Of a stretch of DNA of 5,216 nt, positions 240 to 5,216 are shown one piece after another. The number at the start of each line of letters is the position of its first letter. The stretch's first letter is position 1. Source of the DNA: Planctomycetota bacterium. GTDB lineage: Bacteria > Planctomycetota > Planctomycetia > Pirellulales > Lacipirellulaceae. The position numbers were made by a program, and so were the translations under genes. Under the pieces are notes generated by a model. That model saw nothing but the letters and a program-made list of their open reading frames with translations. It was not told the DNA's origin and searched no databases. The stretch covers positions 1-5,216 of the forward strand of contig JAKEGR010000019.1 of NCBI GenBank assembly GCA_022615465.1, given 5' to 3'.

Positions 240-1160
240 ATGCGTAAAATGGTATTTTGGGTCTTGGCGGCCGCAGTCATGGTGCTGCCCGCTGCCAGCG
301 TGATGGCGGAATCGCCGGCAGATAAGGCGATAGCTCAACAAATTGGTTCGCGGCTCAAGGAAAGTGGCGAGCTGCAGAATTATCAGATCGGGGTTAAGTA
401 TCAGGACGGCGTTGCCTGGTTGTCTGGTAGCGTTGCCAGCGCTGAGCAGCGTGACGCTGCCTTACGTATCGCCAGAGAAATCGACGGCGTTTCGCATGTT
501 GTCTGCCGGCTTGATATGCCCAGTCAATTGCCGGCGGCGATCGGCAATTCGGCGGATCTTCACGGCGCGTTGCAACAGGCCGGAATCTCGCGTACACCCA
601 AGAGGCTGTCGGGGATCCAGCAGGCCGCGGCTCGTAGTACTTCCAAAAACACGCTTCAGAGAAGTTCCCAGCGGAATCCGGCCAACCCGCAATCAATCAG
701 GAGCAACGGCCAGCAGCGGATGATCCGCGGCGGTAACATGCCCTTGCCTGCACAGCGGATGGCGATGAACCCGGCGATTCGGCAGACCAGCGCTCAGGGT
801 ATTCAGCCGGCGGGCGGCGTCTACACGGCTGATGGCAGCATGGCTGGCGATGCTATGGTGGCCGGCGGGGGCAGCATGGGTGTTGAGGCCGTGCCAGCGA
901 CTTTTATGCATCGCAGCCAGGGCGGCCCAGCGGGCAGCTATGACAATGCCAACATGCCCGCTTATGCCTGGCCGAGTTATGCTTCCTACCCGAACTACGC
1001 TGCCTTGACTTATCCGCAGCAGTATTCGCCAACGGCTTGGCCCTACATTGGCCCATTTTATCCCTATCCGCAAGTGCCGCTCGGCTGGCGGAAGGTTTGC
1101 TTGGAATGGGATGATGGCTGGTGGTTCCTGGATTTCAGCCATGCGGGTGATAGCCACTAG
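240..1160 (+). CDS. Secreted BON-domain protein with aromatic C-terminal tail
   Basis: Protein of 306 residues. Residues 1-23 are a signal peptide with a basic start, a hydrophobic core and a VMA|ES cleavage site, so it acts outside the inner membrane. Residues about 28-94 match a BON domain: helix, strand with GVAWLSGSV, helix with EQRDAALRIA, then GVSHVVCRL. BON domains are small alpha/beta modules linked to membrane or peptidoglycan attachment in OsmY-type proteins. Residues 95-230 are low complexity, rich in Gln, Ser, Met and Gly. Residues 240-299 are very rich in Tyr, Pro and Trp and end in a compact motif, GWRKVCLEWDDGWWFLDF, which I recall from planctomycete homologues. The ATG at 240 is chosen because AGGGGGG (228-234) lies five bases upstream and the signal peptide starts there; a start at 165 would bury it. 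A single BON copy is present. The role is probably structural or adhesive in the envelope; no enzyme motif is seen. Confidence 0.93.
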   Translation: MRKMVFWVLAAAVMVLPAASVMAESPADKAIAQQIGSRLKESGELQNYQIGVKYQDGVAWLSGSVASAEQRDAALRIAREIDGVSHVVCRLDMPSQLPAAIGNSADLHGALQQAGISRTPKRLSGIQQAAARSTSKNTLQRSSQRNPANPQSIRSNGQQRMIRGGNMPLPAQRMAMNPAIRQTSAQGIQPAGGVYTADGSMAGDAMVAGGGSMGVEAVPATFMHRSQGGPAGSYDNANMPAYAWPSYASYPNYAALTYPQQYSPTAWPYIGPFYPYPQVPLGWRKVCLEWDDGWWFLDFSHAGDSH

Positions 1161-1542: not shown

Positions 1543-2121
1543 ATGTCAAAAACAACGACCATCGCCACAGGAATTGCATTAGCGGTCCTGCTATCAGCCA
1601 CATCGGGCTGCTTCTGGGGCCTGCCGACGCAAGGCCCGAGCCTGGGAATCCTGGCGATTCCCATTCCGGTCAGTCCCTACTTTCAAGATCAAAAGGAAGA
1701 CGTGGCTTGGGAAAAGGAGCGATACGAACGCGTGCCGATCCTCGGTCCGGTAACCTCGGGCGGTTCGCCGGTGGCGCTCGACCCACCCAGTGACGACGAA
1801 GTGATGCGTGCCCTGGAGAAAGCCGAGCCAGTCGAAGGGGGCATCCCGTTCCTGTGGGAGCGGTGCCGCAACGATGTGCGGATTGTGAAATACAAGATTG
1901 CCGACTATGTGGATCCTCCGCGAGTCTATCCGCTCCTTGGTCCAGCGCAGCAACATCATGCCCATTACAAGTGCATCATCTACTACGAGGACATCCGTCG
2001 CATCGGTTGGCCGGTGCCGCACACGATCCGCGATGACGAGGCGGAAGAGGTGATCTACATCGACCACAATCACTTGCACATGGTTGGTAATCTCGATACA
2101 GGCGCGGGTGCCAAGTTTTAG
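1543..2121 (+). CDS. Planctomycete-type lipoprotein of unknown function
   Basis: Protein of 192 residues. Residues 1-22 form a lipoprotein signal peptide: SKTTT, a hydrophobic core with IALAVLL, then TSGC with the lipid-bearing cysteine at 23. The -3 residue is Thr, which is permitted but less common. The mature protein has no repeat or membrane segment. It carries a Pro-rich stretch (about 78-84), a segment with VEGGIPFLWE (97-106), DYVDPPRVYPLLGPAQ (121-136), then QHHAHYKC (137-144) and DHNHLHMVGN (174-183). I recall a conserved planctomycete hypothetical family with the GPAQ-HHAHYKC pattern but know no function. The ATG at 1543 is supported by AGGGGA (1531-1536) six bases upstream and by the signal peptide; a GTG overlaps just before it. 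Flanking non-coding gaps of 382 and 187 bases suggest a single-gene unit. The His clusters could bind metal, which is inference. Confidence 0.9.
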   Translation: MSKTTTIATGIALAVLLSATSGCFWGLPTQGPSLGILAIPIPVSPYFQDQKEDVAWEKERYERVPILGPVTSGGSPVALDPPSDDEVMRALEKAEPVEGGIPFLWERCRNDVRIVKYKIADYVDPPRVYPLLGPAQQHHAHYKCIIYYEDIRRIGWPVPHTIRDDEAEEVIYIDHNHLHMVGNLDTGAGAKF

Positions 2122-2308: not shown

Positions 2309-3109
2309 ATGAGTTGCAACATTCGCGTTTTCTGCATGGCAACCGGTGTCCTTGCCGCCCATGGAATCGCAATTGCCAATATCGCGGCGGCCCAGCAGGT
2401 GGTAGGCGAAGCCGCCCAGGGAGAAATCATCCCCACGCGCAGCCTGTTCGATATGCTGCTGGCAGGTGGGCCGCTCATGTTGCCAATCGCGATCGCCTCG
2501 TTTGTGATGTTGTTGGTCACGTTCGAGCGAACGGTCAGCCTTCGCCAACGGCGTGTTGTATCACGGCTGTTTGTTGAGCGATTTCTGTTGCAACTCCGAG
2601 AGGGAGCACTGGATCGGAACGAAGCTCTGGAACGGTGCGAAGAAGAACCCAGCCATATTGCCTGTGTGTTTGCCGCCGCGGTGCGTAAATGGGGTAAGCC
2701 GGCCGTCGAGGTCGAACAAGCCGTTCTGGACGAAGGGGAGCGAACCGGCAACGTGCTGCGGCGGTATCTCCGCGTGCTCAATGGCGTAGCAACCGTCTCG
2801 CCACTGCTAGGATTGCTCGGCACGGTATGGGGCATGATGGAGTCGTTCAACTCGATCGCCAATCATGGAGCCATTGGCCGGGCCGAGTTGCTGGCGGGCG
2901 GAATCAGCCACGCGATGATCACCACGGTAGGAGGTTTGTTCGTCGCGATTCCAGCTTTGATTCTCTATTTGTATTTTGCCGGGCGGGTCGATCGCCTGAT
3001 CATGGAGATCGATCACCACGGCCAGGAAGTTGTGGGCTTGATTTCTTTGGAAGGGCTGGAGGAACGGAAGAATTCCAGGATGGCGACCGCCCGACGTAAG
3101 GCGGCGTGA
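2309..3109 (+). CDS. ExbB/TolQ/MotA-type proton channel subunit
   Basis: Protein of 266 residues. With ExbD it forms an inner-membrane proton channel that converts proton motive force into movement of a partner protein. Residues 1-28 look like a cleavable signal peptide ending IAAA|QQ, a feature I recall in planctomycete members. Membrane segments are at about 48-73, 158-180 and 197-224. The family core is clear: ATVSPLLGLLGTVWGM (161-176), where TVWG matches the channel threonine region of E. coli ExbB, and ISHAMITTVGGLFVAIPAL (199-217) with the conserved Thr pair and Pro. The cytoplasmic loop (about 78-150) is of normal size and largely charged. The C-terminus is short and basic (ARRKAA). 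The ATG at 2309 is preceded by GGAGA (2296-2300) at eight bases; an ATG at 2336 would cut into the signal peptide. It is the first gene of an operon with the ExbD-like and toroid genes. It could equally be named TolQ-like; orthology is not claimed. Confidence 0.95.
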   Translation: MSCNIRVFCMATGVLAAHGIAIANIAAAQQVVGEAAQGEIIPTRSLFDMLLAGGPLMLPIAIASFVMLLVTFERTVSLRQRRVVSRLFVERFLLQLREGALDRNEALERCEEEPSHIACVFAAAVRKWGKPAVEVEQAVLDEGERTGNVLRRYLRVLNGVATVSPLLGLLGTVWGMMESFNSIANHGAIGRAELLAGGISHAMITTVGGLFVAIPALILYLYFAGRVDRLIMEIDHHGQEVVGLISLEGLEERKNSRMATARRKAA

Positions 3110-3110
3110 A

Positions 3111-3163
3111 GAGAAGGTCATGTCTTGGTAATTTGCCTGCCCGCTGAAGCGAGCGTCGCCAGG
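3111..3163 (+). promoter_or_regulatory. Inter-cistron element with mini-ORF and possible Shine-Dalgarno-occluding hairpin
   Basis: Two bases after the exbB-like stop, GAGAAGG (3111-3117) sits three bases before ATG TCT TGG TAA (3120-3131), a three-codon frame. It is not in frame with the exbD-like gene. Downstream, CCTG (3136-3139) can pair with CAGG (3160-3163), and CGCT (3142-3145) with AGCG (3152-3155). This would hide the AGGA (3161-3164) that serves the TTG start at 3172. The layout suggests translational coupling or tuning of the ExbB:ExbD ratio. It is read by eye only and may be chance. Confidence 0.25.
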
Positions 3164-3171
3164 AAATTGGG

Positions 3172-3624
3172 TTGAGTGATAGCCTTGCCATGCCACTGAA
3201 GCTGCAACACGAAGAGACGCCGGCACTGAATCTGACGCCGATGATCGACCTGCTGTTCTTGTTGATTATCTTCTTCATGGCGGCGGCAAATTTTGGTGAG
3301 CCGGAGCAAAACATTAGCGTGGCCGTGCCCGAAGTGTCGCAGGCCGGTGAAAGTGTCGCGACGTCCAAGCCGCGAATCGTCACCGTGTTCCCTGACGGCC
3401 GGTATGACTTCGATGGGGAATCGGTTACCCTCGACGACCTGACCACGCGATTGACGGCTGCACGCAGCCAGCATGGCGGCCTCTCGGTCGTGATTCGTGG
3501 CGACGCCCATTGCACATTCCAACAGGTGGCGTCGGCCTTGTCCGCCTGCCAGCAGGCTGGGATTTCAGAACTGGGAATCACGGTACGCGTCGCCAGCGTG
3601 GGTGGTGTGGGTAATGTGCGTTGA
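3172..3624 (+). CDS. ExbD/TolR-type biopolymer transport subunit
   Basis: Protein of 150 residues from the TTG at 3172, close to the usual ExbD length of about 140. A short cytoplasmic N-terminus leads into LNLTPMIDLLFLLIIFFM (19-36), the single membrane helix. Asp26 in this motif corresponds to the essential proton-carrying Asp of ExbD (Asp25 in E. coli) and TolR. The periplasmic domain follows the family plan: IVTVFPDGRYDFDG (69-82), VTLDDLTTRL (85-94), LSVVIRGDAHCTFQQV (104-119) and a final strand ISELGITV (131-138). Start choice: TTG at 3172 has AGGA (3161-3164) seven bases upstream. The ATG at 3190 (residue 7, giving MPLK) resembles the usual planctomycete N-terminus but lacks a well-placed ribosome binding site. 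An in-frame TGA at 3145 bounds the upstream side. It lies 62 bases after the exbB-like gene, and its stop codon overlaps the ribosome binding site of the next gene. Confidence 0.94.
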   Translation: MSDSLAMPLKLQHEETPALNLTPMIDLLFLLIIFFMAAANFGEPEQNISVAVPEVSQAGESVATSKPRIVTVFPDGRYDFDGESVTLDDLTTRLTAARSQHGGLSVVIRGDAHCTFQQVASALSACQQAGISELGITVRVASVGGVGNVR

Positions 3625-3631
3625 GGGCGGC

Positions 3632-5216
3632 ATGTTTCAGCACCTTATCGCCGCCGGATTTTTAGGGCGCATCACCCAGATGTCGCTATTGCACCTGCTT
3701 CTGTGGTGCGGCATGGCAGCATCCAGTGTCGGGCTGATCGTGCTGTTACGCACAAGCTGGGCCACACAGCGACCGCTGCATAAGTGCGCGATCCTGTCGC
3801 TGGCGGTGCATCTGCTGTTGGCCTGCATCGCGATGACAGTCCGGATAGTGGTGGGCGAAAGCGGTATTGGTTCCGGGCCGCCGATCCGCGTGCGTATCGT
3901 ACAAGAATCGCCTGTGACGGCAGTGTCGATGACCGATCTGGTCGTTGCATCTGCCGAACTAACCCCGCCGCCGTTGATCGAGACGCCGGCAGTTGAGCCG
4001 GAGGAATCCCTCTCCGATCCCACGCAGGAAGAAATACCACCCAAGCCGCCGACGGAAGCCATAACACCCGATCAGCCGATTGCGGAGTCAACCGACTCGG
4101 AGATCATTGATGCGAGCGATGACACGTTACCCCTGATTGACCCTTCAGCGTCGAGCCTGGCTGCCAGTTTAGTCGGGACCGAGGACGCCCCGTCCCGGGT
4201 TGATGACGCTGAAAATAGGCCGCAAGACACGGCGGACGAGGACACGCCTGCAGTTGTCGATTCTGCAAGGAATAATAGCACCGACTTGCCGCTGCCGACG
4301 GCCGCTACCTCCGTGGCGGTTGCTGGCAGCACGACCGCGCCGTATAAGCTGCGGGCTGACACGGATCGATTGAGCCTGGTCGAGTCGCAAGGCGGGAGTC
4401 GCGAAACGGAGGCGGCCGTGGAGGCGGCCGTGGCGTGGCTTGCCGCCGTGCAGTCGCCCGATGGCCGCTGGGATGCGAGCCGGTTCGGCGCCGGACGGGA
4501 ATTGGCGGTGTTGGGTCACGATCGGCATGGGGCGGGACGGGACGCCGACACCGGGATCTCTGGATTGGCGATTCTGGCGTTTCTTGGTGCGGGTCACACC
4601 CATCAAAGCGGCAGTTACGATCGAACGGTGGGCCGCGGCCTCGATTTCTTGATGCGTTCCCAAGCAGCCGATGGAAATCTATACGGAAACGCCGAATTTT
4701 ACGCCCAAATGTATTGCCACTCGATGGCCTCGTTTGCACTCGCCGAGGCACTCGCCATGACCGGCGACCGGCGGCTCGAGCCGAGCGCGAGGCGGGCAAT
4801 CAACTTTTCACTGCGCGCTCAGCATCCGTCGACGGGGGGCTGGCGGTATCGCATCGAGGATACAGGTGACACCAGCCAATTGGGTTGGCAAATGATGGTC
4901 CTGGCAAGTGCGGAGCGATCCGGAATTGCTGTCACACCTTCCACGTGGACAGGCATCGAACGATTTCTGCGAAGCGTGCGCCGTGGTCAGTACGGAGGAT
5001 TAGCCAGTTATCGGCCGGATGGACCGCCCAGCACATCCATGACGGCCGAGGCATTCTACTGCCATTTGTTACTAAGTGAGGTCACCAAGGGTGTAGTTGA
5101 TGAACACGCTGCTGTTGAATCGACAACGCGGATTTTGTCATCGCTGCCACAACGGGATCTCGTCAACCTCTATTACTGGTACTATGCGACGCTCGCGCTG
5201 CACTCTCGCCAAGGTG
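3632..5216 (+). CDS. TonB/TolA-like anchored protein with terpene-cyclase/prenyltransferase-type repeat domain (3' incomplete)
   Basis: At least 528 residues, open to the window end. Membrane segments are at about 17-38 and 52-70, with basic residues between them (Arg40, Arg47, Lys51), so the rest should be periplasmic. The second helix holds Ser56-x-x-x-His60, the signature of TonB and TolA helices that contact ExbBD or TolQR. Residues about 105-240 form a Pro/Asp/Glu-rich linker. From about 257 an alpha/alpha-repeat domain of the prenyltransferase/squalene-cyclase fold begins, with QW-like turns QSPDGRWD (274-281), QAADGNLYG (344-352), QHPSTGGWRY (397-406) and QYGGLASY (453-460). NLYYWYYATLAL (512-523) is a motif I recall near the end of planctomycete relatives, so perhaps 70 residues are missing. 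The DxDD catalytic motif of squalene-hopene cyclase is not seen. The ATG at 3632 has GAGGG (3623-3627) four bases upstream; an ATG at 3614 overlaps the exbD-like gene. The role is unknown; coupling to ExbBD is inferred. Confidence 0.88.
   Translation, partial: MFQHLIAAGFLGRITQMSLLHLLLWCGMAASSVGLIVLLRTSWATQRPLHKCAILSLAVHLLLACIAMTVRIVVGESGIGSGPPIRVRIVQESPVTAVSMTDLVVASAELTPPPLIETPAVEPEESLSDPTQEEIPPKPPTEAITPDQPIAESTDSEIIDASDDTLPLIDPSASSLAASLVGTEDAPSRVDDAENRPQDTADEDTPAVVDSARNNSTDLPLPTAATSVAVAGSTTAPYKLRADTDRLSLVESQGGSRETEAAVEAAVAWLAAVQSPDGRWDASRFGAGRELAVLGHDRHGAGRDADTGISGLAILAFLGAGHTHQSGSYDRTVGRGLDFLMRSQAADGNLYGNAEFYAQMYCHSMASFALAEALAMTGDRRLEPSARRAINFSLRAQHPSTGGWRYRIEDTGDTSQLGWQMMVLASAERSGIAVTPSTWTGIERFLRSVRRGQYGGLASYRPDGPPSTSMTAEAFYCHLLLSEVTKGVVDEHAAVESTTRILSSLPQRDLVNLYYWYYATLALHSRQG
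4409..4432 (+). repeat. In-frame 12-bp tandem duplication
   Basis: GAGGCGGCCGTG occurs twice back to back (4409-4420 and 4421-4432), encoding Glu-Ala-Ala-Val twice (residues 260-267) at the first helix of the repeat domain. It may be a recent slippage event or a helical composition that happens to use identical codons. Confidence 0.7.

Follow-up and report, generated by a model that had tools for sequence, protein, structure and literature searches.

Gene organisation of the locus

The DNA stretch analysed here (5,216 nucleotides; hereafter the window) is an entire contig, C21, of a planctomycete genome (2.29 megabases in 437 contigs, estimated 66% complete). Its forward strand carries a triad consisting of an exbB/tolQ-like gene (2309..3109; 266 amino acids), an exbD/tolR-like gene (3190..3624; 144 amino acids from the start common to its relatives) and a longer third gene (3632..5216; 528 amino acids visible), here called the toroid gene, whose product is a putative force transducer. 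Genes were called mechanically as the longest open reading frames (ORFs). The toroid gene begins at ATG 3632 and runs off the contig end (last full codon 5215), so the C-terminus of its product is missing; complete relatives have 572–717 amino acids. The top named matches are from the Pirellulales, including Bythopirellula, Botrimarina, Pirellula and Rhodopirellula.

The exbB-like gene encodes a putative subunit of the proton-channel pentamer, with a MotA/TolQ/ExbB domain (PF01618, E 1e-28) and both proton-path threonines, Thr172 and Thr206, which align to Thr148 and Thr181 of Escherichia coli ExbB and are invariant in 14/14 aligned relatives. The exbD-like product has an ExbD domain (PF02472, E 1.3e-26) and the proton-binding Asp in its membrane helix; this residue, Asp20, corresponds to Asp25 of E. 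coli ExbD and does not vary among 15/15 aligned sequences. The three E. coli residues are named essential in PMC12905483. These Pfam matches, together with the conservation of the triad in relatives, bear out the original prediction of an ExbBD motor with a partner in the TonB position. Of the intergenic gaps given there, the 7 bases between exbD and the toroid gene stand, and the 62 bases between exbB and exbD hold for the mechanical exbD ORF, which begins at TTG 3172; the relatives share an MPLK start, which is ATG 3190 in the window, and from this start the true gap is probably 80 bases.

Two membrane helices are predicted near the N-terminus of the third protein. The position of the first (residues ~18–41; 3683..3754) was transferred from an AlphaFold2 model of a complete relative, L039, and that of the second (residues ~48–69; 3773..3838) comes from the same model and the sequence. 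The basic loop before the second helix suggests the orientation found in TonB, from cytoplasm to periplasm. Beyond the helices lie a short strand, a Pro/acid-rich linker (residues ~92–236; 3905..4339), which has few conserved columns and whose counterpart in the L039 model has low pLDDT, and a predicted alpha/alpha toroid domain (residues ~237–528; 4340..5215), which is incomplete in the window. The TonB/TolA layout claimed earlier is retained in its order of helix, linker and distal domain, and its single membrane helix is replaced by the two predicted on the L039 model.

Conservation of the triad

Toroid homologues were found in all 59 genomes searched, the window's own included, and the surroundings of the best match were fetched for 53 of the 58 relatives. 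All 53 of these loci have exbD upstream of the toroid gene in the same orientation, and 52 also have exbB, the remaining contig (L059) beginning at exbD. The gap between exbD and the toroid gene is below 400 bases in 52/53. Another collection of 80 named loci, which overlaps in species with the fetched set, gave a similar picture: both motor genes were present in 73, exbD only in four and neither in three, and each of the seven loci without a full triad either starts at a contig end or lies no more than 1.4 kilobases (kb) from one. The triad was present in 37 of 39 screened genomes. At greater distance, toroid matches were obtained in at least 181 of 196 genomes of the phylum and in 98/98 of the class. 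In Rhodopirellula baltica, exbB and exbD genes that may or may not belong to a toroid triad (RB12053, RB12055) rise at high salinity (PMC2754498).

A Ser-x3-His motif in the second membrane helix

The second helix contains the motif Ser56-x3-His60 (3797..3811), which was absent from the original prediction and is the best evidence for a transducer. Of 54 aligned toroid proteins (including that of the window), 53 include the N-terminus; all 53 share His60 and 52 share Ser56, which is Ala in L081. In an alignment of 33 N-termini these two columns are the only invariant ones. The motif lies within a hydrophobic stretch in 72 of the 80 named loci, and of the other eight, four are without the N-terminus and four keep the His without the Ser. 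As a control, 218 of 551 other ORFs from the same loci have a hydrophobic stretch and only two of the 218 carry Ser-x3-His, one of which is a TonB with a TonB_C domain. TonB_C proteins from the order served as a positive control: among 18 of them, 11 carry the motif at a threshold of 1.0, three fall slightly below it and four are without the motif, some of the four perhaps read from the wrong start. The full TonB motif is Ser-3x-His-6x-Leu-3x-Ser (SHLS), in which the Ser and His form a contact hub with ExbB and the Leu of TonB makes no contact (PMC12905483).

The strand that follows the second helix, IRVRIVQ (3884..3904), resembles the D-box of TonB and begins 29 residues past the motif Ser. 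The same distance separates the D-box of E. coli TonB from its motif Ser, which we take to be Ser16. The E. coli D-box, ISVTMVT, lies within residues 43–54 (PMC10907165). The D-box-like hydrophobic pattern was found in 25/53 orthologues in its strict form and 45/53 in its loose form, and in 0/212 linker windows. As a D-box equivalent the strand is suggestive only.

A putative force transducer

The sequences themselves show the conserved gene order, the Ser-x3-His helix and the retention of the proton-path residues in ExbB and ExbD. The best explanation of the third gene, to which we assign a probability of roughly 0.74, is that it encodes a TonB/TolA-type force transducer that docks on ExbB-ExbD and pulls its distal toroid in a Tol-like envelope function. 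ExbB would bind the Ser-x3-His helix and ExbD would catch the D-box-like strand after it. Proton flow through the ExbB pentamer would turn or move ExbD, so that the linker is tugged, and the toroid might grip a partner in the outer membrane or periplasm via its conserved aromatic and acidic residues. The weakest step concerns the role of the system, which may be Tol-like, in outer membrane upkeep or remodelling. Three features favour such a role over nutrient import: the system is found almost throughout the order, is independent of TonB-dependent receptors and is present where TolB was not found (TolB_N matched 0/39 genomes, with positive results for E. coli, Caulobacter and Bacteroides controls).

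Several observations weigh against this explanation. The second half of SHLS is missing from the toroid proteins (Leu in 1/53, the last Ser in 0/53). A profile of their N-termini did not match TonB at E values up to 10, its sole match being a claudin (E 1.7), and the match of the full toroid-protein profile to TonB (E 0.031) may be due to linker composition. Among 11 true TonBs from the order, just one shows the strict D-box pattern, which is thus not diagnostic; having failed this positive control, it was rejected as proof. In locus L083, exbD lies 2246 bases (~2.2 kb) from the toroid gene. Five relatives (G022, G025, G041, G045 and G051), which are outside the 53 fetched loci, gave only weaker toroid best matches among those listed; two of these genomes are incomplete and three are 95–99% complete. 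For G051, no exbBD was found at locus L205, and a paralogous locus (L227) has the order TPR-exbB-exbD-toroid. In family f21, exbD and the toroid gene occur without an adjacent exbB in all 11 loci examined (8 + 3), and in f87 many loci have exbB with no exbD found. Finally, Pal-like domains occur in 37/39 genomes at E ≤ 0.001 (0/39 above the Pal cut-off), so the absence of a Tol system is not proven.

The predicted toroid domain and its paralogues

The predicted assignment of the distal domain to the toroid of the terpene-cyclase fold is based on a match to PF13243 (SQHop_cyclase_C; 29.1 bits, curated cut-off 26.1) and on the fold of the L039 model, which agrees with the terpene-cyclase-like toroid proposed earlier; the QW-like turns described there are seen as QSPDGRW and QHPSTGGW. 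TonB_C was not matched in an hmmscan of the 528 visible residues, and the L039 model has the toroid in that place. The third protein also gave no Pfam match to a vWA domain. In public records, toroid proteins are annotated as squalene--hopene cyclase, prenyltransferase repeat protein or hypothetical protein.

DxDD is the catalytic motif of squalene-hopene cyclases. A canonical class II cyclase appears unlikely from the sequences because DxDD is present in only 1 of 54 toroid regions. Hopanoid synthesis was accordingly rejected as the principal explanation, given the missing motif in the other 53 and because the protein falls well short of the NCBIfam cyclase cut-offs. The action on a hopanoid-like lipid suggested in the original prediction found no support. 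Alternatively, the toroid protein could be anchored in the membrane as an enzyme acting on a glycan or terpenoid, or as a protein binding one, and share only the operon with ExbBD, which would serve another partner. In favour of this alternative, many aromatic and polar positions of the toroid are invariant (Trp404, Arg405, Tyr406, Asp413, Ser415, Trp419, Glu473, Tyr514, Tyr517 and Tyr518), and the same fold is used by cyclases, sugar epimerases and GH76 mannanases. Against it stand the rarity of DxDD and the Ser-x3-His motif, which is near-invariant though the linker varies and is rare in other membrane proteins of the same loci. We consider this alternative unlikely; the toroid may also be both catalytic and energised by the motor.

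The wider family bears on the same alternative. Forty further loci were taken from family f21, from other orders and phylum-level matches, and from Pirellulales paralogues. Only 11 of the 40 fetched stretches contain exbB or exbD; the other 29, in which toroid paralogues lie away from exbBD, favour that alternative. The adjacency to the motor genes on which the original prediction was to be tested holds for the orthologues, at 52/53 loci, but not for most of these loci from the wider toroid superfamily. The Ser-x3-His helix is present in 34 of 44 toroid ORFs from these paralogous and distant loci, including a paralogue from the window's own genome. This paralogue, on contig C168 (L002:1027-3393), is a toroid protein of 788 amino acids with a Ser-x3-His helix and belongs to a second exbD-toroid pair; exbD lies just before the toroid gene and the contig ends before any exbB. 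Another contig of the same genome, C421 (L003:1165-2226), encodes a toroid protein of 353 amino acids without the long linker or Ser-x3-His, with a gene called by eye as a MoxR-like ATPase downstream.

Gene order varies within the class: among 20 loci, two have exbB-exbD-toroid, ten exbB-toroid, three exbD-toroid and five the toroid gene alone. In L263-L267, L272, L273 and L276-L278, exbB directly precedes a toroid gene with Ser-x3-His and no exbD was found beside it; such loci possibly encode a motor whose ExbD is encoded elsewhere. A TPR gene precedes exbB in L263, L265 and L268. In L223 a true TonB with TonB_C (3919-4686) and a Ser-x3-His toroid gene (6434-8167) lie on one strand less than 2 kb apart. 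In L207 (6014-9823), the gene after exbB-exbD encodes a protein of 1269 amino acids that combines WD40-like (PD40) repeats with a C-terminal toroid and lacks Ser-x3-His.

Neighbouring genes

Upstream of the triad, the window encodes a BON-domain protein (240..1160, forward strand; PF04972, E 1.3e-14), with a conserved aromatic C-terminus, YPNYAALTYPQQYSPTAWPYIGPFYPYPQVPLGWRKV, common to its relatives, and a putative lipoprotein without a Pfam family (1543..2121, forward strand), whose signal-like N-terminus ends in an invariant Gly-Cys. Of the 53 fetched loci, 42 have the lipoprotein gene upstream, 33 the BON gene and 28 a TPR gene; on the downstream side, 42 have a TatA-like gene. With the TPR and TatA-like neighbours as further components, the toroid protein could instead serve, structurally or as a regulator, in an export or motility device powered by ExbBD. 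The neighbours vary among families, however, no TPR gene precedes exbB in the window and the downstream side of the window is off the contig; we regard this alternative as improbable.

The lipoprotein has a mean column identity of 63% in 29 relatives and invariant His138, His141, Cys144, Asp174, His177 and His179. It is present in 98/98 genomes of the class and in 6/99 of the phylum sample, all six belonging to that class, and its gene is unlinked from the toroid gene in the complete f21 genomes compared. A role as a triad-specific partner is therefore not favoured, and the lipoprotein may be a class marker only. Its structural model (mean pLDDT 75.8) gave LptE as the best Foldseek matches, with E values of 0.06 or worse and TM below 0.25, and no claim of LptE-likeness is made.

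Distribution of Ton components

Plug was found in 18/39 relatives and TonB_C in 13/39, with neither in 20/39. A variant Ton system, in which the toroid replaces TonB_C in opening TonB-dependent receptors, would share the motor and the N-terminal motif with TonB, but it is very improbable, since the triad is present in 19 of the 20 genomes with neither match and receptor-bearing genomes often hold a real TonB_C protein too.

Comparison with known systems

The toroid triad resembles TonB-ExbB-ExbD in the proton-path residues of ExbB and ExbD, the N-terminal Ser-x3-His helix, the Pro-rich linker and, possibly, a D-box strand equally far from the Ser. It differs in having a toroid protein without TonB_C, an extra first helix and only the first half of SHLS, and in having no tie to TonB-dependent receptors. 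The motor, motif and linker are likewise shared with TolA-TolQR of the Tol-Pal system, and many toroid loci have a TPR gene nearby; CpoB is the TPR protein of the Tol-Pal neighbourhood. The distal domain, however, is unrelated to that of TolA, TolB was unmatched in the 39 genomes and Pal-like matches were found only below the cut-off. Class II terpene cyclases, including squalene-hopene cyclases, share the PF13243 domain, whereas here one toroid stands behind a linker and membrane helices and DxDD is generally missing.

A further parallel is with the vWA force transducers of PVC bacteria (including Planctomycetes) and other bacteria, which have a TonB-like helix (Williams-Jones et al. 2025; PMC12204202). 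They have in common with the toroid proteins a motor-binding His helix, a linker, a foreign distal domain and upstream TPR and motor genes. The distal domain is vWA there and a toroid here, and toroids are unmentioned in sections 8 and 12 of that paper. In the open-access papers searched, most of which were judged by listing, no toroid protein was found described as a partner of ExbBD.

It is conceivable, if rather doubtful, that planctomycetes have a third lineage of periplasmic force transducers, with terpene-cyclase-fold toroids in place of TonB_C, TolA or vWA domains. The lineage would have spread into many paralogues with Ser-x3-His, orphans that borrow a motor, and the near-universal triad would shape the outer membrane of these budding bacteria in place of the Tol-Pal system they lack. 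Some PVC bacteria are without FtsZ (PMC5147048). If the transducer explanation is correct, the cyclase and prenyltransferase names in the databases mislead, and the triad, which is conserved across many planctomycete families, is a testable candidate for an energised envelope device in bacteria where TolB was not found. The known ExbBD-type motors pull few kinds of distal domain, namely those of TonB and TolA and, since 2025, vWA. A toroid of the terpene-cyclase fold would be another.

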